Shown here: positions 29,764 to 40,505 of the stretch, piece after piece
Numbering within the stretch: the first letter of the stretch is position 1
How the letters are laid out: each line of letters begins with the position of its first letter
Source: an uncultured Bacteroidales bacterium
GTDB taxonomy: Bacteria > Bacteroidota > Bacteroidia > Bacteroidales > Paludibacteraceae
NCBI GenBank assembly: GCA_900321605.1
Contig: ONWR01000028.1
Coordinates: 1-41,226 of the forward strand
Length of the DNA stretch: 41,226 bases
Direction: 5' to 3'
Translations under genes and position numbers: made by a program
The notes under the pieces: generated by a model
Databases searched by the model: none
What the model was told of the DNA's origin: nothing
Seen by the model: the letters and a program-made list of their open reading frames with translations, nothing else

Positions 29764-29770
29764 TAAAAGT

Positions 29771-29800
29771 ATCGGCACAAACCCGTGCCGATATTTTTTT
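29771..29800 (+). terminator. Intrinsic terminator after aspS
   Basis: ATCGGCAC (29771–29778) and GTGCCGAT (29785–29792) form a perfect 8-bp stem with a 6-nt loop, followed by ATTTTTTT. It marks the end of the long ribosomal transcript. Confidence 0.9.
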
Positions 29801-29810
29801 CTCTTTTTTC

Positions 29811-29841
29811 TTGCATATATGCAAAAAATGTAGTAAATTTG
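29811..29841 (+). promoter_or_regulatory. Promoter of the vWA/tubulin/protease operon
   Basis: TTG (29811–29813) and TAAATTTG (29834–29841) match the Bacteroidota consensus with a 20-nt spacer, immediately after the aspS terminator. The inverted repeat TTGCATATATGCAA overlaps the -33 element and could be an operator. Confidence 0.75.
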
Positions 29842-29867
29842 CAGCCGATTTGTTAAATCGATATAAA

Positions 29868-30917
29868 ATGCAAACAAACGGTATCATGAAAAGAATCTGT
29901 ATGGGCTTGGCGATGGTGCTGATCACGTTGAGCTTATCTGTGAGCCTGTCAATGAGCGTAAGCGCTCAAGGACAGTTCAAGGACGTGCGTCAGACTTACC
30001 TCTGGGACGTGACCCTCTCGATGAAGGGGTACAACGGTGCGCCGGATATCTACAGCAAGGTGGTGGATGTGATGGTGAAGGATATAGAGTCCATCACCGA
30101 CGAGCGGACGGAGATCGTGGTGATCCCCTTCCAAGACACGCAGTACTGCGAGGTATGGCGTGAGTTCGCTACGCCTCAAGGCAAGGCGGCTATCATCCAA
30201 CGGATTCGTTCGTACGAGAACAAGAACATCACCAACACGAACATCTCCGCCCCGCTGCAATACGTGATCGATCAGGTGTTCACGTCCGACAAGATCGATA
30301 TCATGAAACTCATGACGGACGGTAATGACAATGTCAATCCGGCTCGGCTGCGTGAAGTGCTCAACCAATGGTGCGAGATAGCGAAAGAGAAAGATGCGTA
30401 TGGCTATTACATCCTGCTGACCAATGCGGCGAAGATGGATTTTGAGCTGAAAGGGATCTGTAATTTCGAGGAGGTGGATGCGTCGGATATGTTAGATGGT
30501 ATTGCGGACATTCGTCAGCTCAACAGCACGCTTAAGCAAGGTATTCTTATCAATATCCGCGATGAGTACGATAAACCCAAACGTCTGACCTTCAAGATCT
30601 ACTCCGGTGACGGTAATATACCTGCCGGTTTCAAGATGCACTATAAGACCCTGCCCAACGACTATGTGGAGGTGGATGAGATAGCGGAGATGAATGCCGA
30701 TAACTCGCTGGAGATTCATCCTAAGTTCAAGAAGACGCAGGAGGCACTGATCGCCGAACTGCCGACCGATTATCCGTACAGCGATATCGTGCTGCAATAC
30801 GAACCGACGCCGGAGATGTCGGAAGGTAAGTACGCTTTCACTCGTATTATGGATCACGAGTGTGCGTTGATGTTAGAAAACAAACCCGTTAAAACCGTTA
30901 AGATCTATGTCAAGTAA
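29868..30917 (+). CDS. Exported von Willebrand factor A domain protein
   Basis: From ATG 29868 the product has 349 residues (start at 29886 is equally possible; both follow the promoter directly). A signal peptide (RICMGLAMVLITLSLS, then MSVSAQG) predicts export across the inner membrane. The vWA fold is indicated by a metal-ion site: DVTLS (D47-T49-S51), TNTN near 122–125, and LMTDGNDN (D151). The segment after about 210 is a separate beta-rich domain. vWA proteins bind partners through a divalent cation. It overlaps the next gene by 11 nt and is the first of a four-gene set with a tubulin-like GTPase. An in-frame open reading frame extends back into aspS, but those residues are not credible. 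Confidence 0.78.
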   Translation: MQTNGIMKRICMGLAMVLITLSLSVSLSMSVSAQGQFKDVRQTYLWDVTLSMKGYNGAPDIYSKVVDVMVKDIESITDERTEIVVIPFQDTQYCEVWREFATPQGKAAIIQRIRSYENKNITNTNISAPLQYVIDQVFTSDKIDIMKLMTDGNDNVNPARLREVLNQWCEIAKEKDAYGYYILLTNAAKMDFELKGICNFEEVDASDMLDGIADIRQLNSTLKQGILINIRDEYDKPKRLTFKIYSGDGNIPAGFKMHYKTLPNDYVEVDEIAEMNADNSLEIHPKFKKTQEALIAELPTDYPYSDIVLQYEPTPEMSEGKYAFTRIMDHECALMLENKPVKTVKIYVK

Positions 30918-31854
30918 AGTGGATAGTTTTAAGTTGAAAGGTAAAAGTCTCAGCTGGGCGACGATGCTCGTCTTTGTCCTCATTTTAACGGGTTGTCAAC
31001 CAAAGCACGATGAGTACTCGGTGCTGTGGGGCAAGACCGATACGTATGATAAGTTCCTTTGGAAAGAGCAGATCCCCGATACCCTCAAGCAGACCCTCTG
31101 TTTTGATTTCAACGACGATGCACGTCAGTATCTCTCCGCTCCGCTGCGGATAGGGGTGTTCAAGAAGACGGAGCACGGTCATCTCACTCCCGTGCCGACC
31201 TCCGAAGCGCAGCTGTTCGTGGACGGTAAGGCGTTGGAGAACAATATCCTCACCGTGCAGCCCACAGAGAGCGAGAAAGAGGTAGGAATCGTCTTCTCGC
31301 CCAATGCGGAGAACAAGATGCACTACTGGTATCTCAAGCCGGTGGACACGGCGGGTCTGGATCGTATCAATGATCAGGCGCAGTACGGCGCGGACGATGC
31401 GCTGATGGAGATCAAGCTGCGCAAACGGCATGTGATGAACCCCTTGGCGGAAGGGCTGATGTGGTTCGGTATAATCGTTGGCGCTGCCTTGGTGCTGTGG
31501 TTCCTGATACTAAAGAGGATGTTTTTCCCTGTCTTCCGTGTCACTCGTCTGCAACTGACGGGACCGGAACCGTATATGAGTCTTCTCAAGCTGAAGAACT
31601 ATCGTCTGTGCATTCTCTCGGCGCATCCCGAGAAACAGAGCGCGCTCAACCGTCTTTTCTGCGGCGAGATCAAGTATGAGGTCAACCCGATGTGGACAGC
31701 ACCGGTGGTGTTCGAACCCCGTGACAAGAAATCGATCCGCGTCCGTCCCGATAAGAACACGTATTCCACGGATGCACGGATCATGAAAACCAACGCTGAC
31801 TATGTGCTCGTGAACGAACTCTCAAAAACGAAAACCAATATGAGAATCTCGTAA
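30907..31854 (+). CDS. Lipobox-containing single-pass membrane protein
   Basis: The 315-residue protein has a basic N-terminus and a hydrophobic segment ending in the lipobox-like LILTGC (C30), so it may be lipidated. Residues 31–175 form a predicted periplasmic domain. A strong transmembrane helix (about 183–203, GLMWFGIIVGAALVLWFLIL) is followed by the basic KRMFF, and residues 204–315 should be cytosolic. It thus could bridge the exported vWA protein and the cytosolic tubulin-like GTPase. Translation is coupled to the vWA gene (11-nt overlap). No family is recognised; the function as a connector is inference. Confidence 0.7.
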   Translation: MSSKVDSFKLKGKSLSWATMLVFVLILTGCQPKHDEYSVLWGKTDTYDKFLWKEQIPDTLKQTLCFDFNDDARQYLSAPLRIGVFKKTEHGHLTPVPTSEAQLFVDGKALENNILTVQPTESEKEVGIVFSPNAENKMHYWYLKPVDTAGLDRINDQAQYGADDALMEIKLRKRHVMNPLAEGLMWFGIIVGAALVLWFLILKRMFFPVFRVTRLQLTGPEPYMSLLKLKNYRLCILSAHPEKQSALNRLFCGEIKYEVNPMWTAPVVFEPRDKKSIRVRPDKNTYSTDARIMKTNADYVLVNELSKTKTNMRIS

Positions 31855-31870
31855 ATCGTCCATTGACCTC

Positions 31871-31912
31871 AATCGTCAATAAATCGTAAATCGTAAATCG
31901 TCAAATCGTCAA
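31871..31912. repeat. Heptamer array (ATCGTAA / ATCGTCA) before the tubulin-like gene
   Basis: At least five ATCGTMA units, mostly in register, fill the 65-nt gap between the membrane-protein gene and the tubulin-like gene. The first related unit overlaps the upstream stop codon. Confidence 0.7.
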
Positions 31913-31919
31913 TACTATT

Positions 31920-34655
31920 ATGGCTACAAAAATCAAACGCTGCCTCTATGTAGGACTTGGTGGAACGGGTATGAACGCATTGCTTCATACCAAGAAAACA
32001 TTTATGGACACCTATGGAGAGGTGCCTCCTATGATCGGATTCTTAGGTATCGACACGGATAGCGGTGCGTACAAGAAGACGCTGACCACCGTTCGTGGTG
32101 AGGAGGTACGTCTTAGTCCGAACGAACAGTTGCCTATCCTCGTGAAGGACGCCCGTCCTATCTATGATGTGAACAGAGAGTCTTTCTCTTGGATTCCGGA
32201 GAAGAACCTGTACGCACTGACGGGTATGACCCTTGGTGCCGGTCAGGTGCGTACCAATGGTCGTTTTGCCTTCACGGTCAATTATGTGCAGGTGGCGCAG
32301 AAAGTGCGTACTATCCTTGACCAGATCTCCAACGCACGTATCCAAGCCAACGATAAATACGAGCTGTTGAGCACCAACACCGAGATCCATCTGGTCTTCT
32401 CGGTTTGCGGCGGTACGGGTTGCGGTACGTTCCTCAACATGGCGTACCTGCTCCGCAAAGAGGCTCCGCAGTGTAAGTTAACCGGCTATGCCGTGCTGCC
32501 GGATATCTTCAAATCGATGTCCCGTTCGGGTATGGCAAAGGTCGCTCCAAACGCGTATGGCGCTATCCTCGACCTCGATTATCTGATGCATATGGGGCTC
32601 GGCAGCACGCCTGTTCAGCTCGATTATATCAAGGACAGCTATGAGATCCGTGAACGTCCGTTCAACTCCGTGGTCTTCATCGATAACAAGAACGAGAACC
32701 TCGACACCTATACCCATGTGGACGAGTTGACGGAGATGATCTCCTTGGCGCTCGTCACCTCTGCCGGTGAACTGAGTTCGGCTTCCGCTTCTGTCAGCGA
32801 TAACTTGGAGAAGAACATCACCGAAGGTACGATGGACATCGAGAATAAGAAAGCGTGGGCTGCCGGTATGGGTATCTGTGAGATCTTCTTCCGCAACAAC
32901 GAGATCAGCGAGATATACGCTATCAAGGCTGCCAAGAACCTGATCGACCGTATGTTCAACTCCTGCGAGGACACCGATATCATCGTCAACGCGTGGATCG
33001 ATTCGCCGGAGGTCAATATCCGCGAGAACAACAACAGCGATCATGTCATCGATTATATTGCCGACAAGACTCCGGCATATGATCTGACCATCAATGAGGA
33101 CTCGAACGCGATGCCGGAGGTGGAGCAGTACCTGCAGATGAACAAACTCAAAGACGAGGCGGTGAACGAGAAAGTGACCGCCCTCAGTAACCGTGTGCGG
33201 GCTGAGTTGCATAAACTGATCGTGGAGCACGTCAACCGTGAGTGCGGTATCTCCACTGCCCGTAGTATCCTCGAAGCGATAGACGCTCAGGTGGATACCT
33301 TCCTCAGCGAGATGAAAAAAGAGAAAGAGGAACTGCTCGACAAACAACCTCGTCTGCGTTCAACCCTCGAAGCCGCCGTGAGTGACCTCAAGGAGTACAA
33401 CGCTAAGTTCTTCAAAACCAAATCGACCTTGGAGGAGAAAGAGGAAGATGTCATCGCTTCGGCGAAAGACCTCTGTGTGAACCTCCGTGATGTAGCCCGC
33501 CGAGATGCGGCTACCATGGTCTTCAACACCCTCAAAGCGAACCTCCTTGCCGAGACCAATAAGATCAATATGATCGCCGAGAGCCTCTTGGCTTGCTCCA
33601 AGAAGTTCGCTGCCGACCTTGCCAAGTTGCAGAACAACGTCTCCAAAGCAGCACAGACCTTCCAGATTGACCTTGCGCAGGATATCGCTACTTCACTCAC
33701 CGTGAAGCAAGACGAGATCGTCTTCTCCGATTTCGTGCGTTCGTTGCCGGACAGCGAGAAAGTGTATCAGTTTGCCGGTTATGACGCTGATGCGATCGAG
33801 GCGTTCATCCTCCACTACACCAAGGAGCTGCCGACCGCTAAGGACTACCGCGAGATGACTATCGATCATATCATCGATAAGATGGAGCCGGAGGCGTTCG
33901 ACCGTATGATCCGTCTGGCAATCAATAAGTCGCTGCCGATGTTCCGCTATTCGTACCGCGGTCATCGACCCAAAGAGAACCCGCGTGACAGCTACTATGT
34001 CGGTCTGCCCGATAAGGCGCATAGCCGTCTCGTGACCGATGATTATTTCAAGAGACGCATCCAGAATGCGGATTGCGATTTCGCCAGCATCGGTGTGACG
34101 GATAAGATCATCATCTACCGTCAGATAGGTGTCGTTCCGGCTTATACGATCTCGTCCATCGAGGATTATCGTCGTGAGTACGAGGAGTGCAACGCCGATT
34201 GTCATATCGACTATACCTTGGAGACGCGTATGCAGCGTGAGGAGTTCTCGCTGATGCCCAAACGTGCTACGGATGACGACCTGCTCGATCTGTGGGTCAA
34301 AGGATTCATCTTCGGTCTCGTCAAAAACGAGAACGGCGAGTATCTCTTCCAGAGCCAAGAGCATGGTGACGCCTTGGATGATAACTGGGTGTCGCTCGGC
34401 AAATACCGTGACGAAGCGTTTGAGAACTTCCGCCGCTATAAGAGTTCGATCCGCAAGGAGTTCCCGGAGTTCTTTGAGCACTTGGCGAACAGCAAAGGTG
34501 CGGACGCAATGCAGGCTATCCTTGCCAAAGTGCGGACAGGTTACCTCGATACCTTCTCGCAGATCCATATGACCAAAGAGGAGATCAAGAAACACGGTTT
34601 CGAGAAGATCCGCCAACTCATCACCGACGAGATCAATCATGCGAAAGGGCTGTAA
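31920..34655 (+). CDS. Tubulin/FtsZ-like GTPase, large
   Basis: The 911-residue protein begins with a tubulin-type nucleotide fold: YVGLGGTGMNALLH (residues 10–23) matches the T1 loop of FtsZ, and VFSVCGGTGCGTFLNM (159–174) is the tubulin signature (GGGTG[ST]G) in variant form. FLGIDTDSGA (about 41–50) fits the second strand. A predicted coiled-coil stretch (about 460–525, rich in KEKEELL and TLEEKEED) follows, and the last ~300 residues are unassigned. It is cytosolic. It resembles the Tubulin_2/FtsZ-like families reported to occur with vWA proteins in a proposed membrane-remodelling system. Here vWA and a membrane protein lie upstream, supporting that setting. Polymerisation is not shown. 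Confidence 0.8.
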   Translation: MATKIKRCLYVGLGGTGMNALLHTKKTFMDTYGEVPPMIGFLGIDTDSGAYKKTLTTVRGEEVRLSPNEQLPILVKDARPIYDVNRESFSWIPEKNLYALTGMTLGAGQVRTNGRFAFTVNYVQVAQKVRTILDQISNARIQANDKYELLSTNTEIHLVFSVCGGTGCGTFLNMAYLLRKEAPQCKLTGYAVLPDIFKSMSRSGMAKVAPNAYGAILDLDYLMHMGLGSTPVQLDYIKDSYEIRERPFNSVVFIDNKNENLDTYTHVDELTEMISLALVTSAGELSSASASVSDNLEKNITEGTMDIENKKAWAAGMGICEIFFRNNEISEIYAIKAAKNLIDRMFNSCEDTDIIVNAWIDSPEVNIRENNNSDHVIDYIADKTPAYDLTINEDSNAMPEVEQYLQMNKLKDEAVNEKVTALSNRVRAELHKLIVEHVNRECGISTARSILEAIDAQVDTFLSEMKKEKEELLDKQPRLRSTLEAAVSDLKEYNAKFFKTKSTLEEKEEDVIASAKDLCVNLRDVARRDAATMVFNTLKANLLAETNKINMIAESLLACSKKFAADLAKLQNNVSKAAQTFQIDLAQDIATSLTVKQDEIVFSDFVRSLPDSEKVYQFAGYDADAIEAFILHYTKELPTAKDYREMTIDHIIDKMEPEAFDRMIRLAINKSLPMFRYSYRGHRPKENPRDSYYVGLPDKAHSRLVTDDYFKRRIQNADCDFASIGVTDKIIIYRQIGVVPAYTISSIEDYRREYEECNADCHIDYTLETRMQREEFSLMPKRATDDDLLDLWVKGFIFGLVKNENGEYLFQSQEHGDALDDNWVSLGKYRDEAFENFRRYKSSIRKEFPEFFEHLANSKGADAMQAILAKVRTGYLDTFSQIHMTKEEIKKHGFEKIRQLITDEINHAKGL

Positions 34656-34698
34656 GGACAAATTAGGTCTGTCTTCTGTCAGGCGAAGCCGGTCTAAA

Positions 34699-34740
34699 GA
34701 CTAACGACTAACGACCAACGACTAACGACCAACGACTAAC
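34699..34740. repeat. Heptamer array (GACYAAC)6 abutting a start codon
   Basis: Six units in perfect 7-nt register (GACTAAC, GACTAAC, GACCAAC, GACTAAC, GACCAAC, GACTAAC) end at 34740, exactly before the ATG at 34741. The array therefore occupies the ribosome-binding region of the protease gene. Confidence 0.9.
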
Positions 34741-37700
34741 ATGAGACATACGGTACATATCATGCTGGGCAATCATGCCGGGACGGTGCTGACGGACATC
34801 AAGAAATATGTCCTCCGGTACGGCAGTGAGGAAGAGAATATCTTCTTTAATGCTATGCTCTATCGGGAGGAAACGGACGAAGCCGTTTTCTATACCGCGC
34901 GTCCGGCAGAACAAGACGAGACGCAGTTCGTGTCCGGCATCGAGAACCTGTACCACATCTCCTTGGAGCCGTTCTATACCTTACCTGAGACGAACCGGAC
35001 GGAGTATCTGCAGGCTTGTTTTGCGGCGCTCTATAACCGGAAGATCACCATCAATAACCCGGGTGACTCATCTGCGCTCCACCTCTGTCTCTACGTACCG
35101 GTATATGAGAGCAAGTACTGGGAACGAGTGAGGGAGTTCCTCTCGGCGATAGACGCTATCCCGCAGCAGTACGAGGTGGACTTGTTCCTGCTGCCCCATG
35201 ACCTTGCCTTCCTCTTGGAAGCCGAGACCGAGACCCTGCCCGTGAAGATGGCTTCCTACCAACGGCAGACCAAGAAGACCATTGACCAGATCCTCGAAGC
35301 GAAGAAGACCTTCCGCTCCTTGCAGCACCTCGTCCTCATGCAGAACTGCAACGCCAACGGTCTCTCGCTTGACCTCAACGAGGAGAGCCTCGTCCGTATC
35401 ATCGGTGAGTTTGCCCTGCTCAGCGTCTCTCACTACAGCGAGATGTTCAATATCGCTGCGCAGGAAGCCAACCGTCCTATTCATGCCTTGGGACTCAGCG
35501 TGCTCAGTTTTGACAAGTACTATTTCGTGCAGTACCTGCTCCACAAAGCGTATATTCATATCCTCGACCGTGAGCAGGTGACCCAGAGCGAGGTGGACGT
35601 GAATAAAGTCTCGCAGATCGCCCAGAGCGTCTTGGCGCGCAATGTGAAGGTCTTCTCCCGTCTGTACGACACACATGTCAAGCCCTGCCTTGACCGTAAG
35701 ATGGATCAGAACGATATCATCGCGCAGATACACCCCGTCCTCACCGACGAGATGAGACGTATCACCGACGAGTGTCAATCGTTCATCGACTCCCCGGATC
35801 TCAGCCTGCCCGAGAAAAAAGCAACCTTGGCACAGCTATTAGGCGAAGATGACGACCTGCTCGTCGGATATGTCTTCAATAAGAAACAGCTCATCATCGA
35901 TGATTGCAGCCGTGAGGTGCTCGATCTGTTTGTGGAAGCGAATAACAAACTGTTGGAGCGGGAGAATCTGATGAGCGAAGCAGCCCTCTCTGCCGCTTCC
36001 TCAGAAGAGATACCGATGCCCGGACAACTGTTGGACGAGATCAAGAACACCAAGATCGACATGCGGGAGGCGTCGAACTATATCCGTCTCAAGACCAATG
36101 AGTTACAAGCTATCGGCGAACGGATCAACGAGCATCAAGAGAGCCGCAAACGTTTGACCGACCAAGGCTTCGTCTTTGACGACCAGACCTTCCAACTGCA
36201 ATCCGACATCGTCGAGAGACCCTTGGAAGAGGACTATAAACCGATCGGCACACCTCCTGCCAAAGCGGACTTGCGACCCCTCTTCACGCCCATCAAGAAC
36301 CAAGGTTCACTCGGGGCTTGTTCCGCTTTCGCACTCGTGGCGATATACGAGTATATCCTGCGTAAGAACAAACAGCAGGAAGCCGACCTGAGCGAGGCGT
36401 TCGTCTATTATAACGTCCGTCGCAAAGAGAATAAGCTGGATACCGACCCGGGCAGTTCGCTCTATAACGTCGTGCTGTCCATGGGGGCAGACGGGGTCTG
36501 CTCCGAGAACTTATGCCCCTATTCGGAGAATCCCGAGATGGAGCAACCGACCGAAGCGGCGTACGAAGATGCGCTCAAACGGCGGATCGTCAAGGCACTC
36601 AACGTGCAGAAGAACGTATCGCATATCAAAGCAGCGGTTTCGGACGGTTATCCCGTGGCTGTGTCGCTCAAGATATTCGAGTCCTTCGCCACCGAGGGAG
36701 GTTTCATTCCTCGACCAACGGACGAAGAGATAGAGAACGGGCAATCGGGCTATCATGCGATGGTCGTCTGCGGCTATTCGGACGAAGAGAAGATGTTCAT
36801 CGTTCGTAACTCATGGGGCACGAAATTCGGTGACCATGGGTATTGTTACATCCCGTATTCGTATTTCGAGGACTTCCTCTCGGTCGCTTGTATCGTCACC
36901 CGGATCAACGATACCGGTCTTCAAGTCAAAGGCAATGACAGCAAGGTCACCCTCTCGTTCGACATGTCCGACGCACGTATCAAAGGAGCGATCTTACGCA
37001 ACCTCATTGAGGAGGAGAAACGCCATTTGGCAAGGCTTGAGACCGTCCTGCAAACCAAAGAGATAGCGTACCATAAGATCTTCCAAGCTTTGGGTAATAA
37101 CGCTACCCGAACGACCCTCTGTGAGGGCACGATCCAACGGCTCGCCTTGGAGAAAGAGGAGCATAGGACTTCCAAAGAGAAGTTGCAGAAAGAGCGTTCG
37201 CTCAAACTCCATGAGTACAAAGTAGAGACCATCACCCACCGCATATGGTTCGGGTTGAGTATATTGGCGTTCCTGCTGATCTTCGGGGTGCTGCTCTTCG
37301 GATTCCGGATACCGGTCTCCGAACTCATCATGCAGAAGGGCGTTTGGTGGCTCATCACGCTCTTTGTGCTTGATATTACCTATTTCATCTATTGGAATTG
37401 GCAGCGTCACAGCGGCTATATCGACCTCAACGAACGCTATCTGAGCCAAATAACAGCCGAAGAACAAGCCGTGCAGCAACGTACGCATCTCATAGGCGTC
37501 TTCAAACTCCAAACCCATGTGGCGGGAATGATCATCGATTCCCTTGCGCAACTCTTCCATAACCTCCATTCGAAATACAACAGTATGCGTTCGTTCGTGG
37601 GTAACCTCAAAGGGTGGCGTGAGGAGGAGACCCAACAGGTCATGAAGGACGATGTGCGTGAGCCTTTCCTCTCGCTCATCTCGAACGCCTGTCTCGATCG

Positions 37701-38187
37701 CTATTTCGATACCTGCAAGGATGCCATAACCGCTAATATCCGTTTGGACCGCATGTTCCGCGACGCGTACCATGTGGAGGAAGAGGAGGTGATCCGTTTC
37801 AAGAACAACCTCAAACAGACCCTTGTCAAGGAGCTCTTTGCGAAGTTAGAGGGCTTCTCGATCTACCGGCATATAGTAGGGGAGAGGACGTTCGACTACG
37901 TCGAGAGGGACTACACGAACCTCGATACCTTGCTCCAACAGATGGATCTCAAGTCGAACCATTTCGTTCGTACCGAATCCACCGCTGAGACCCTTGAATC
38001 ACAGAACGCGAGTTGCAAGCTCCTGTTCATAGACACCGATTTCCAAGCGAACCGTACGCAGTGGAAAGCCATCTGCGACAAGAACTTCCAAGTAGCACCG
38101 AACTTATGCGCAGACTCTTCACCGTTCAAGATGACCCTTCTCCGCCTCGATGCCCTTGAACCCAAGGAGATAGCCATTTTAAAGTGA
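34741..38187 (+). CDS. Papain-like cysteine protease with coiled coils and two membrane spans
   Basis: This 1148-residue protein has an unassigned N-terminal region (1–~400), a helical linker (~400–490), a C1/papain-fold domain (~500–725) and a C-terminal region with two transmembrane helices (~834–853 and ~868–886) followed by a helical tail. The protease core is complete: Q521 (oxyanion) in FTPIKNQGSLGACSAF, C527, H672 in SGYHAMVVCGYS and N690 in VRNSWGTKFGDHGY. Without a signal peptide, the N-terminus and protease are predicted cytosolic, the opposite of most papain relatives. No inhibitory propeptide of the I29 type is visible. It is the last gene after the tubulin-like GTPase, and its start codon abuts a heptamer array. 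Confidence 0.82.
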   Translation: MRHTVHIMLGNHAGTVLTDIKKYVLRYGSEEENIFFNAMLYREETDEAVFYTARPAEQDETQFVSGIENLYHISLEPFYTLPETNRTEYLQACFAALYNRKITINNPGDSSALHLCLYVPVYESKYWERVREFLSAIDAIPQQYEVDLFLLPHDLAFLLEAETETLPVKMASYQRQTKKTIDQILEAKKTFRSLQHLVLMQNCNANGLSLDLNEESLVRIIGEFALLSVSHYSEMFNIAAQEANRPIHALGLSVLSFDKYYFVQYLLHKAYIHILDREQVTQSEVDVNKVSQIAQSVLARNVKVFSRLYDTHVKPCLDRKMDQNDIIAQIHPVLTDEMRRITDECQSFIDSPDLSLPEKKATLAQLLGEDDDLLVGYVFNKKQLIIDDCSREVLDLFVEANNKLLERENLMSEAALSAASSEEIPMPGQLLDEIKNTKIDMREASNYIRLKTNELQAIGERINEHQESRKRLTDQGFVFDDQTFQLQSDIVERPLEEDYKPIGTPPAKADLRPLFTPIKNQGSLGACSAFALVAIYEYILRKNKQQEADLSEAFVYYNVRRKENKLDTDPGSSLYNVVLSMGADGVCSENLCPYSENPEMEQPTEAAYEDALKRRIVKALNVQKNVSHIKAAVSDGYPVAVSLKIFESFATEGGFIPRPTDEEIENGQSGYHAMVVCGYSDEEKMFIVRNSWGTKFGDHGYCYIPYSYFEDFLSVACIVTRINDTGLQVKGNDSKVTLSFDMSDARIKGAILRNLIEEEKRHLARLETVLQTKEIAYHKIFQALGNNATRTTLCEGTIQRLALEKEEHRTSKEKLQKERSLKLHEYKVETITHRIWFGLSILAFLLIFGVLLFGFRIPVSELIMQKGVWWLITLFVLDITYFIYWNWQRHSGYIDLNERYLSQITAEEQAVQQRTHLIGVFKLQTHVAGMIIDSLAQLFHNLHSKYNSMRSFVGNLKGWREEETQQVMKDDVREPFLSLISNACLDRYFDTCKDAITANIRLDRMFRDAYHVEEEEVIRFKNNLKQTLVKELFAKLEGFSIYRHIVGERTFDYVERDYTNLDTLLQQMDLKSNHFVRTESTAETLESQNASCKLLFIDTDFQANRTQWKAICDKNFQVAPNLCADSSPFKMTLLRLDALEPKEIAILK

Positions 38188-38189
38188 GA

Positions 38190-38238
38190 GTTGGCCGTTG
38201 GTCGTTGGTCGATAGTCGTTTGTCAATAGTCGTTGACC
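38190..38238. repeat. Heptamer array (GTTGGTC)7 after the protease gene
   Basis: Seven units in register (GTTGGCC, GTTGGTC, GTTGGTC, GATAGTC, GTTTGTC, AATAGTC, GTTGACC). The consensus is the reverse complement of the GACYAAC array before the same gene, so the protease gene is bracketed by inverted arrays. From 38239 to about 38380 there is only pyrimidine-rich, then AT-rich DNA with no gene that I can see. Confidence 0.85.
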
Positions 38239-38383
38239 TAAAAAGAAGAATTTTGCCCCCTTCATCTCTCCCTCTCTCCCTTCGCATCTGTCTTCTTTTC
38301 GTGCATATTTGCGCGAACCCTCATCGTAAATCCCTGCAAAAACCCCATTATTGACGACAAAATAAATTTATTTCGCAAAATGC

Positions 38384-38804: not shown

Positions 38805-39098
38805 ATGAAAACGACATCCGAATACATAGAAACATTGAGACAGCACGCACCAATCCTGCGTGAGCGGTTCGGTATGACTTCTATGCAACTTTTTGGCTCT
38901 ATAGCTCGCGGAGAACACAATGAGGATAGCGATGTAGATGTGTTTGTTGAGATGCCCGCAACGTTACGCGGAGTAGGTGGGGCTCATGATTATTTGGAAC
39001 AATTAACCGGGCGGCATGTGGATATGATATTAAATCATCGTAGTCTAACGCCTTTTTTCTTAAATGAAGTTAAAAGAGATGGAATTAGAATATTCTGA
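38805..39098 (+). CDS. MNT-type nucleotidyltransferase antitoxin
   Basis: The 97-residue protein carries the minimal nucleotidyltransferase motif GSIARGEHNEDSDVDVFV (GSx10DxD), the hallmark of MntA antitoxins, preceded by LRERFGMTSMQLF. MntA proteins neutralise the partner HEPN toxin by adding AMP to a tyrosine. The coding end overlaps the HEPN gene by 35 nt, the usual antitoxin–toxin coupling. An AAGAAAGG sequence lies just before the ATG. The length is normal for the family. Confidence 0.9.
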   Translation: MKTTSEYIETLRQHAPILRERFGMTSMQLFGSIARGEHNEDSDVDVFVEMPATLRGVGGAHDYLEQLTGRHVDMILNHRSLTPFFLNEVKRDGIRIF

Positions 39099-39483
39099 AA
39101 ATGTGCGTCTCGCCCGCGAAACGCTTTTGAATATACGGAAAGCGATTTCTATGTTGCTGAATTGGAATGCTGATGTAGAGAGCGTAGATGAATGGTTAAC
39201 ATCTCCTCTCGGCATGCAGAGGCTGGCAGGTAACGCTATGATGATAGAAGTCATTGGCGAGGAAGTGAAGAAAGTAGAGAAGCGTTTAGGCATGGAGTTT
39301 TTAAATCAGCGTTCCGAAATTCCTTGGCGAGATATAATGGGGATGCGAAACCACATTGCCCATGGATACTTTGATATCAATGAAGATTATGTGCTTTCTG
39401 TCATTAAGAATGACCTTGCACCATTATTAGAGGCGGTGGAGTATTTGATCAAAATCACGGACGAATACTATTTAACAGCTTAA
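39064..39483 (+). CDS. HEPN-domain ribonuclease toxin (DUF86/HepT-like)
   Basis: The 139-residue all-helical protein ends its core with MRNHIAHGYFDINEDYV. Its RNHIAHGY is the Rx4HxY motif: Arg and His are the RNase residues, and Tyr is the residue AMPylated by MntA in characterised pairs. The start at 39064 lies inside the antitoxin gene. Together the two genes form a standard HEPN/MNT toxin–antitoxin module that likely cleaves RNA when unmodified. Confidence 0.9.
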   Translation: MKLKEMELEYSENVRLARETLLNIRKAISMLLNWNADVESVDEWLTSPLGMQRLAGNAMMIEVIGEEVKKVEKRLGMEFLNQRSEIPWRDIMGMRNHIAHGYFDINEDYVLSVIKNDLAPLLEAVEYLIKITDEYYLTA

Positions 39484-39539: not shown

Positions 39540-39749
39540 ATGAGTATAGTAGAAAGACGGGAAAATAAGATGATAGAAAAAATGGTGGGTAAACTATCGT
39601 CTGGTTATCTCTCGGCTCGACGTGCGAATATCCCGGTAACTGTGGTTCGCGGAGAAACAATATACAGAGTGACTAAAGAGGGAAAAACGGCTATTGGTTC
39701 TGTTGCTCCAAAAGTTAAAGTCAATTTAAGAACGGTGGTTCTAAAATAA
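39540..39749 (+). CDS. Small putative antitoxin upstream of a zeta-type kinase
   Basis: This 69-residue basic protein (MSIVERRENKMIEKMVGKLS at its start, VVRGETIYRVTKEGKTAIGS in the middle) has no family that I recognise. Its stop lies 3 nt before the zeta-like gene, and its size and position are those of an antitoxin in a toxin–antitoxin operon. The motif RGETIYRV resembles RANTIYNV in the 31-residue product at 40879, suggesting related small proteins in this island. The antitoxin role is inferred from context only. Confidence 0.55.
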   Translation: MSIVERRENKMIEKMVGKLSSGYLSARRANIPVTVVRGETIYRVTKEGKTAIGSVAPKVKVNLRTVVLK

Positions 39750-39752
39750 ATT

Positions 39753-40505
39753 ATGGCGAAGCGTCTGCGTATAATAGCAGGGCCTAATGGCTCAGGAAAG
39801 TCTTCGGTATATGCCGATCTCCTGAAAACAAAAACTTTTCACTGGGGTGTTTTTGTGAATGCAGATGAGATTGAAAAGCAATTGAGAGAGAAAAAGTTTT
39901 TGAATGTTACTACCTATGGGATTGATAATTTGAATTGGGATGATTTTTTGTCTGAATATGTGCCATTTGTGGAACAAAAAAAAGGTATATGCAAAGCTGA
40001 TAATTTACTTTATAGAGACCATTCGATTATCGTGATAGATGGAGAAAAAGTAGATTCCTATTTGGCATGTCATGTGGCTGATTTTATTAGAAGAAAATTA
40101 TTGGATAAAAAAGGGAATGTGACTTTTACTATAGAAACGGTTATGTCACATGAAAGCAAGTTGAATTTTATGCGTGCAGCCAAGGAGAAAGGTTTTAAAG
40201 TGTATTTGTACTATGTCTCTACTTCTTCTCCTGAGATTAATGTGGGGCGTGTGGCTACGCGAGTGCAAGAGGGAGGACATGATGTGCCGTTAGATAAGAT
40301 TCGATCACGTTATTATCGTTCGTTAAAGCAATTACGAGATGCTATTCTTTTATCAGATAGAGCCTATATTTTTGACAATAGCGAAAATAAGTATCAATGG
40401 GTAGCGGAATATGATGCTGAAAGCGGACAAATGATTTATAAGAGTGACGAAGTCCCGTCATGGGTGATAGAATATGTTAATAAGCCAAAACTATCAAAAC
40501 TTTAG
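39753..40505 (+). CDS. Zeta toxin-like P-loop kinase
   Basis: The 250-residue protein starts with a Walker A motif in RLRIIAGPNGSGKSSVYADL (G10–S17), followed by VNADEI, TIETVMSH and INVGRVATRVQEGGHDVP with a later KIRSRYYRSLKQL. These features match the zeta-toxin/COG4185 predicted ATPase family, whose toxic members phosphorylate UDP-N-acetylglucosamine or other small substrates. Codons are markedly more AT-rich than in the tubulin operon, fitting recent acquisition. Pairing with the preceding 69-residue protein suggests a toxin–antitoxin unit; kinase activity is not proven. Confidence 0.8.
   Translation: MAKRLRIIAGPNGSGKSSVYADLLKTKTFHWGVFVNADEIEKQLREKKFLNVTTYGIDNLNWDDFLSEYVPFVEQKKGICKADNLLYRDHSIIVIDGEKVDSYLACHVADFIRRKLLDKKGNVTFTIETVMSHESKLNFMRAAKEKGFKVYLYYVSTSSPEINVGRVATRVQEGGHDVPLDKIRSRYYRSLKQLRDAILLSDRAYIFDNSENKYQWVAEYDAESGQMIYKSDEVPSWVIEYVNKPKLSKL

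Follow-up and report, generated by a model that had tools for sequence, protein, structure and literature searches.

Four genes in the 41,226-nt contig ONWR01000028.1 of an uncultured Bacteroidales bacterium (the whole stretch analysed, hereafter the window) encode, in order, an exported von Willebrand factor A (vWA) protein, a lipoprotein linker, a tubulin-like GTPase of the Tubulin_2/FtsZl1 family, and a large protein with a papain-type protease domain and a membrane hairpin. This four-gene unit is conserved in some gut and rumen bacteria. The presence of a degenerate tubulin-like domain in the fourth protein is moderately supported. The reading that we favor, tentatively and at a little under even confidence, is a sensor across the envelope coupled to a mixed tubulin-like assembly that carries its own protease.

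The four-gene unit and its proteins

A profile built from 12 gene-4 (protease) proteins was searched against 358 genomes from the same family, and a match at E 1e-90 or better was counted as a long protease protein. Sixteen genomes hold such a protein. In 15 the match spans almost the full profile; the copy in G115 stops at a contig end and covers profile positions 6–897. The GTPase gene adjoins gene 4 in all 16, with a PF13809 match in 15, and in G860 a 241-residue GTPase fragment lies at the contig end. With three further loci (L005, L007 and L008) the 16 genomes give 19 distinct loci. Eighteen of these, the window included, extend far enough upstream, and all 18 show the order vWA–linker–GTPase–protease, which is far beyond chance. 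The conserved co-occurrence that the original prediction put forward as a check is thus found. On the question of independent occurrence, also raised there, the outcome is divided: the long protease protein always adjoins the GTPase (16/16), but the GTPase also occurs without it. Tubulin_2 is present in 34 of the 150 genomes of a family sample (33 over the cut-off), 7 with gene 4 and 27 without, which makes the protease a part specific to this clade and not the core of the system. Among 295 genomes sampled from the order, 14 gave a Tubulin_2 match, and among 395 from the phylum, 13 did; 10 in each set passed the cut-off, and some of the weak matches may be ordinary FtsZ.

At the looser threshold of E 0.001 the gene-4 profile matches 99 of the 150 genomes, 7 with the long protein and 92 others. 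At E 1e-40, a second set of 295 genomes gave 12 matches, the window and 11 others. These further matches cover the papain part (about positions 490–780), the exceptions being two short C-terminal matches, G082 and G115. Matches to papain alone were left out of the counts for the unit. A scan of viral contigs for the protease protein gave no match.

The vWA gene (29886–30917, on the + strand like all features of the window given below) was assigned from the open reading frame (ORF) list, Pfam and an alignment of 14 sequences. Its start is the second Met, the one used by most homologues; 29868 is likewise in frame. The protein has a signal peptide, judged by eye and hydropathy, and the metal site D-x-T-x-S ... 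TDG is present in 14/14 aligned sequences, the window protein carrying a DVTLS ... TDG version like a metal-ion-dependent adhesion site. The Pfam VWA match (E 1.3e-4) scores 22.7 bits, slightly under the cut-off of 23.8. The linker gene (30907–31854; ORF list, hydropathy and alignment) overlaps the vWA gene by exactly 11 nt. Its lipobox LTGC has an invariant Cys30 (9/9 aligned), followed by a periplasmic part of about 150 residues, one transmembrane segment at 179–210 and a cytosolic part of about 105 residues. The vWA protein and the linker form one open frame in 3 of the 18 four-gene loci (L004, L027 and L028) and likewise in the relative L048, which is from another family and has no protease. 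Because of these fusions a direct contact between the two proteins is likely, and the bridging role of the linker gains support. The exported vWA protein with its metal site, the lipobox protein with domains on both sides of the membrane, and the operon-like layout with an 11-nt overlap and short gaps had all been read correctly in the original prediction.

The GTPase gene (31920–34655; Pfam, alignment and model) begins 65 nt after the linker gene. Its product matches PF13809 (Tubulin_2) with E 5.2e-49 and 167.8 bits against a cut-off of 27, and comprises an N-terminal tubulin domain, long helices of coiled-coil type, and a C-terminal region. ORF translation and alignment place the T1 loop, GLGGTG, at 31953–31970 and the T4 loop, CGGTGCG, at 32406–32426. 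The latter is a variant of the signature GGGTG(S/T)G, with GGGTGCG in L006 and AGGTGSG in L023; the claim of a tubulin-like GTPase with a variant signature and an FtsZ-like T1 loop holds. Structures predicted from 8-sequence alignments had a mean predicted local distance difference test (pLDDT) score of 48 for the protease protein and 55 for the GTPase. In the GTPase model the long helices at residues 412–570, taken as an extended coiled coil after the tubulin domain, exceed a pLDDT of 80. Residues 1–320 are poorly modeled, and the VIA rows of the structure comparison covered the long helices only; since the model is poor in the N-terminal domain, the assignment to Tubulin_2 rests on Pfam. An ordinary FtsZ-type gene (PF00091, E 1.5e-43) lies on another contig of the genome (G000:C30).

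Gene 4 (34741–38187; ORF list, Pfam, alignment and hydropathy) starts 85 nt after the GTPase gene and encodes 1148 residues. Its papain (C1) domain, residues 506–704 (36256–36852), was located by Pfam (PF00112, E 3.4e-19), a structure-database match (best solved chain 3ois, E 3.9e-27) and alignment. The active-site residues Gln521, Cys527, His672 and Asn690, together with Trp692, are invariant in 19/19 gene-4 proteins, with pairwise identities among them down to 24%. The predicted protease looks functional, and the complete Cys-His-Asn site noted earlier is confirmed at Cys527, His672 and Asn690, with Gln521 added. A transmembrane hairpin at residues ~830–887 (37228–37401) is placed by hydropathy only. 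C-terminal to the papain domain, 19/19 homologues have two hydrophobic segments (19-residue mean hydropathy above 1.2); those of the window protein lie at about 835–853 and 867–885, the second being weaker at 1.49. The N-terminus is not hydrophobic: within residues 1–45, no 19-residue mean exceeds 1.05 in 19/19. Because of this, and because a hairpin brings the chain back to the side it came from, most of gene 4 would be inside. The expected topology has the vWA protein and the outer part of the linker outside; the GTPase and most of gene 4, including the papain domain, would be inside. The protease had been called cytosolic; the papain domain is indeed expected on that side, but the hairpin in all 19 proteins does not fit a soluble enzyme. 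The C-domain, residues ~925–1148 (37513–38184), is shared in part with a protease-less protein of L029 described below. Separately, a 253-residue open frame in G115 (C45:3344–4063), on a different contig from that genome's gene 4, matches the C-domain.

The N-terminal domain of gene 4 and its relatives

By profile comparison the N-domain of gene 4, residues ~1–330 (34741–35730), is quite probably a degenerate Tubulin_2-like domain, though this is well short of certain; the original prediction had not noted it. By eye it repeats the order of elements of the GTPase, and it carries a motif such as QNCNANGLSL where Tubulin_2 has DNKNxxG or SNxNENGLS. Against a 36-sequence Tubulin_2 profile the N-domain scores 38.9 (E 2.2e-4), a value reached by 0/100 column shuffles (maximum 20.9) and 0/100 shuffles of 15-column blocks (maximum 31.6). 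Six control profiles (two vWA, papain, the C-domain and two lineage-B proteins) score 15.8–20.1. A seventh, made from the lineage-B protein that follows the GTPase, scores 31.8 and is itself a candidate relative. With 13–24 sequences per side the comparisons gave E 0.04–0.06, and the match became significant only with 36 sequences on the Tubulin_2 side. Restricted to 21 Tubulin_2 sequences outside its own lineage, the match has E 6e-4 over 177 columns; with lineage C alone it has E 1.6e-3 over 180 columns, and with its own lineage plus C, E 8.7e-3. The match of the profile and of most single sequences is located in the S6-H7-S7 stretch. Taken singly, 12 of the 19 N-domains scored higher than any of 60 shuffles, and 7 failed to; the top four (the window, L002, L003 and L075) are close relatives, and several weaker ones align at the same place.

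At the T4 position the window protein reads LYVPVYES, and no Gly-rich loop of GGTGxG type is seen by eye in 15/15 aligned sequences. Without a T4 loop the N-domain should not bind GTP phosphates in the usual way.

The position after the GTPase gene (the slot) is occupied in L029 and L048 by shorter proteins of 689 and 770 residues, which have neither a papain domain nor a hydrophobic segment. The L048 protein matches the N-domain profile (E 1.9e-5, four-sequence search) and not the C-domain; that of L029 matches the C-domain (E 2e-8) and not the N-domain profile (E 0.14). Because both lack the papain domain and the hairpin, these two parts look inserted and are probably late additions to an older two-domain protein; their loss in L029 and L048 is a possible alternative. 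Two slot proteins, as single sequences, align with Tubulin_2 at the same place as the N-domain (L056, E 7e-4; L029, E 2.1e-3). An 11-sequence set of lineage-B type gave E 1e-4 against Tubulin_2, and E 3e-4 with lineage B removed from the Tubulin_2 side. The lineage-B sets are weak against most subsets of that side, and L053, L057, L048 and three single lineage-B proteins are not clearly above their own 25 shuffles.

Lineage B (L032–L042) has the order vWA protein, Tubulin_2 protein of about 1100 residues, hairpin protein of about 845–940 residues, and multi-transmembrane protein with a transglutaminase-like domain whose catalytic site is mostly degenerate. The hairpin protein resembles gene 4 around the transmembrane region (pairwise E 4e-4). 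Seven of the 11 loci add an N-terminally anchored HExxH protein, the HExxH being kept in 7/7 aligned. That this lineage might use an active thiol protease of transglutaminase-like type where the window has papain was considered and rejected: the nucleophile position, as we presume it to be, is Cys in 1 of 10 aligned and Ser, Tyr or another residue elsewhere (first domain copy), even though one of the three members scanned (L038) passes the transglutaminase-like Pfam cut-off. The HExxH protein, predicted on the outer side, appears to be the better protease candidate. The multi-transmembrane protein of L038 (12145–14808) has two transglutaminase-like copies, the second with GDC, by eye, at the presumed nucleophile.

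Additional tubulin genes are found near some units. G867 and G992, two relatives of the window type, have a tubulin-domain-only gene downstream (L071 14003–15202, 399 residues; L072 13646–14863, 405 residues) with T4 GSTGSG, beside a gene for a transmembrane-type protein. G905 has a second full-length Tubulin_2 gene (L076 6502–9303, 933 residues) downstream, about 3.4 kb from the protease gene. With extra tubulin genes in these three genomes, it may be common here for one system to have several tubulin-like chains.

Proposed mechanism and rival explanations

For a sensor coupled to a protease-bearing tubulin-like assembly, the following path is proposed. Outside the inner membrane, the vWA metal site would bind a ligand or a wall component. 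The vWA protein would dock on the periplasmic part of the linker, a lipoprotein with a single transmembrane helix that could relay the state to the cytosolic part. Inside, the GTP-binding tubulin-like protein would assemble with a degenerate tubulin-like subunit, which has no phosphate-binding loop and is anchored by its hairpin. In this clade the second subunit bears the papain protease, and assembly or disassembly of the GTPase might place, cluster or unmask the protease near its substrate. A tubulin-type site requires the next subunit to complete GTP hydrolysis, as in FtsZ and tubulin. If the partner has no nucleotide site, it could dock on the GTPase, cap it or alternate with it, gathering the protease domains. 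Signaling through vWA, linker and GTPase and control of the protease, both already put forward in the original prediction, are inferences, as is co-assembly. A bolder version is doubtful: that a nucleotide-dead, membrane-anchored pseudo-tubulin with papain co-assembles with the GTPase, that the GTPase cycle, set by the external vWA protein through the linker, switches proteolysis inside the cell, and that such a partner is general to Bacteroidota Tubulin_2 operons, with other enzymes grafted on by clade.

The N-domain might instead belong to a different Rossmann-type fold, such as a small-GTPase-like or a dead C11/caspase-like one; there would then be no tubulin pair, only a GTPase gene beside a membrane protease. 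This we consider somewhat unlikely. Several results weigh on its side: the N-domain reaches only E 0.05 against Tubulin_2 of its own lineage, a Pfam scan of it gave no match, and the fold search with the gene-4 model returned a C11 protease and small GTPases. The fold matches listed for the two low-confidence models include neither a tubulin nor an FtsZ chain; with a mean pLDDT of only 48 and 55, the comparison of folds is indecisive. Both models show the elements in the order S4-H4-S5-H5-S6, with low confidence there in the GTPase one. Against a different fold stand the location of the Tubulin_2 match on S6-H7-S7, with a score above two Rossmann-like vWA controls, and the lack of any C11 match in Pfam. 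Nor does the N-domain have an invariant His-Gly or Cys, which we take to be the C11/caspase-like catalytic pattern.

The output of the system could also be other than proteolysis. In a membrane-remodeling machine along the lines of Makarova and Koonin (2010), the tubulin-like protein would shape or organize the inner membrane together with vWA and envelope proteins; the papain domain would be an accessory and not the output, only processing a structural component or clearing subunits. The family and its vWA partner are the same as in the main text of that paper (PMC2875224), L029 and L048 keep a slot protein without protease, and most lineage-B loci have a different anchored protein, of HExxH type, instead. 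Yet the papain catalytic residues are intact in every gene-4 protein, and no envelope or vesicle gene is constant, by eye, beside the four genes in the loci mapped. Remodeling seems rather unlikely. We regard as quite unlikely a conflict system against phages or competitors (cf. Kaur et al. 2020), in which invasion or envelope damage would trigger assembly and the protease would cut host proteins, leading to arrest or death. Such a role would fit the patchy presence of Tubulin_2 and of the protease form, the lack of the unit next to asnS in congeners and the toxin-antitoxin-like genes about 1–2 kb downstream (both described below), and the tubulin, extracellular vWA and transmembrane proteins described in section 29 of PMC7159879. 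It is opposed by the housekeeping look of the left-hand neighbors and by the four proteins themselves, none of which matches a P-loop GTPase or GAP1. They also have no PADLOC family match at E 0.001; only the GTPase has weak matches, of coiled-coil type, the best being PbeC at E 0.0049. If a protease-bearing tubulin-like assembly is confirmed, a tubulin-family assembly would control an enzyme, and not shape or DNA segregation. The conserved set offers cleavage as a biochemical read-out for the Tubulin_2/FtsZl1 family.

Gene neighborhood and known systems

All four genes are co-directional and lie downstream of asnS, recognized by eye; rpoA and rplQ (by eye) are the other housekeeping-like genes on the left. 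A terminator-like stem is located at the asnS end (29765–29798). The promoter-like element TTG...TAAATTTG at 29811–29841, read from the sequence, is 26 nt upstream of the in-frame ATG 29868 and matches what we take to be the Bacteroidetes promoter consensus. A scan for promoters of sigma-70 type, which does not model that consensus, found 7 against 8.0 expected. An Rfam scan of the window gave no match. In 10/10 congeners the unit is absent beside asnS (stretches of 4 to 12 kb), and the content after asnS varies among them; one (L063) has there an ORF that the gene-4 profile matches weakly (E 7.2e-6).

Directly 3′ of the protease gene, at 38190–38240, there is by eye a short series of near repeats with words of the type GTTGGTCG. 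A small lipoprotein-like fifth gene (109–137 residues) immediately follows gene 4 in L006, L024, L025, L026 and L071–L074; the window has no lipoprotein-like ORF of at least 100 residues directly after gene 4. At 38805–39483 a nucleotidyltransferase-like ORF (GSIARG motif, by eye) overlaps a HepT-like gene (PF01934, E 3.7e-15), a probable HepT/MNT toxin-antitoxin pair. A small ORF and a zeta-toxin-like/AAA_33 P-loop protein (PF06414, E 1.7e-6) follow at 39540–40505, possibly a second toxin-antitoxin-like pair.

The 2010 description of Tubulin_2/FtsZl1 gave no tested function. Both the pairing of the family with vWA and the idea of membrane remodeling come from the main text of Makarova and Koonin (PMC2875224), as the original prediction had stated. 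The vWA link is restated in PMC5898192, and a 2023 superfamily study (PMC9871819) presents Tubulin_2 as a sparse divergent group. The open-licence literature yielded no function for the family since 2010. In the same literature, taken without supplementary files, there was no link between Tubulin_2 and papain, and nothing on the linker, the papain-transmembrane protein or a degenerate tubulin partner; the view that the protease and the bridging protein lie outside the characterized versions agrees with this. The words protease, peptidase and papain do not occur in the main text of PMC2875224; its Additional Files may list Bacteroides neighbors.

The tubulin-vWA sets of Firmicutes and Actinobacteria are treated by Kaur et al. 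2020 (PMC7159879), in the section cited above, as conflict systems, with two tubulin genes in Firmicutes. The GTPase-centric GAP1-N2 systems of that section and the window have in common a tubulin-domain protein with coiled coil, an outside vWA and transmembrane partners. The window differs in that it is from Bacteroidales and has papain instead, with no match to GAP1, a zinc-ribbon GTPase or FNIII in the four proteins (for GAP1 and the zinc-ribbon GTPase, a Pfam scan limited to those four). Compared with papain family C1 (PF00112, 3ois), the Gln-Cys-His-Asn site is equally complete, but the domain is embedded in an 1148-residue protein with a transmembrane hairpin. The FtsZl1 of the PMC2875224 main text likewise has the N-terminal tubulin domain with T1 and T4, the coiled-coil-type helices, the adjacent vWA gene and an ordinary FtsZ in the host; to this the window adds the lipoprotein linker and the papain-transmembrane protein with its possible degenerate tubulin domain. 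The vWA–Tubulin_2 pairing is known already; the linker, the papain-transmembrane protein and the possible degenerate tubulin partner appear, by the open-licence literature, to be new.

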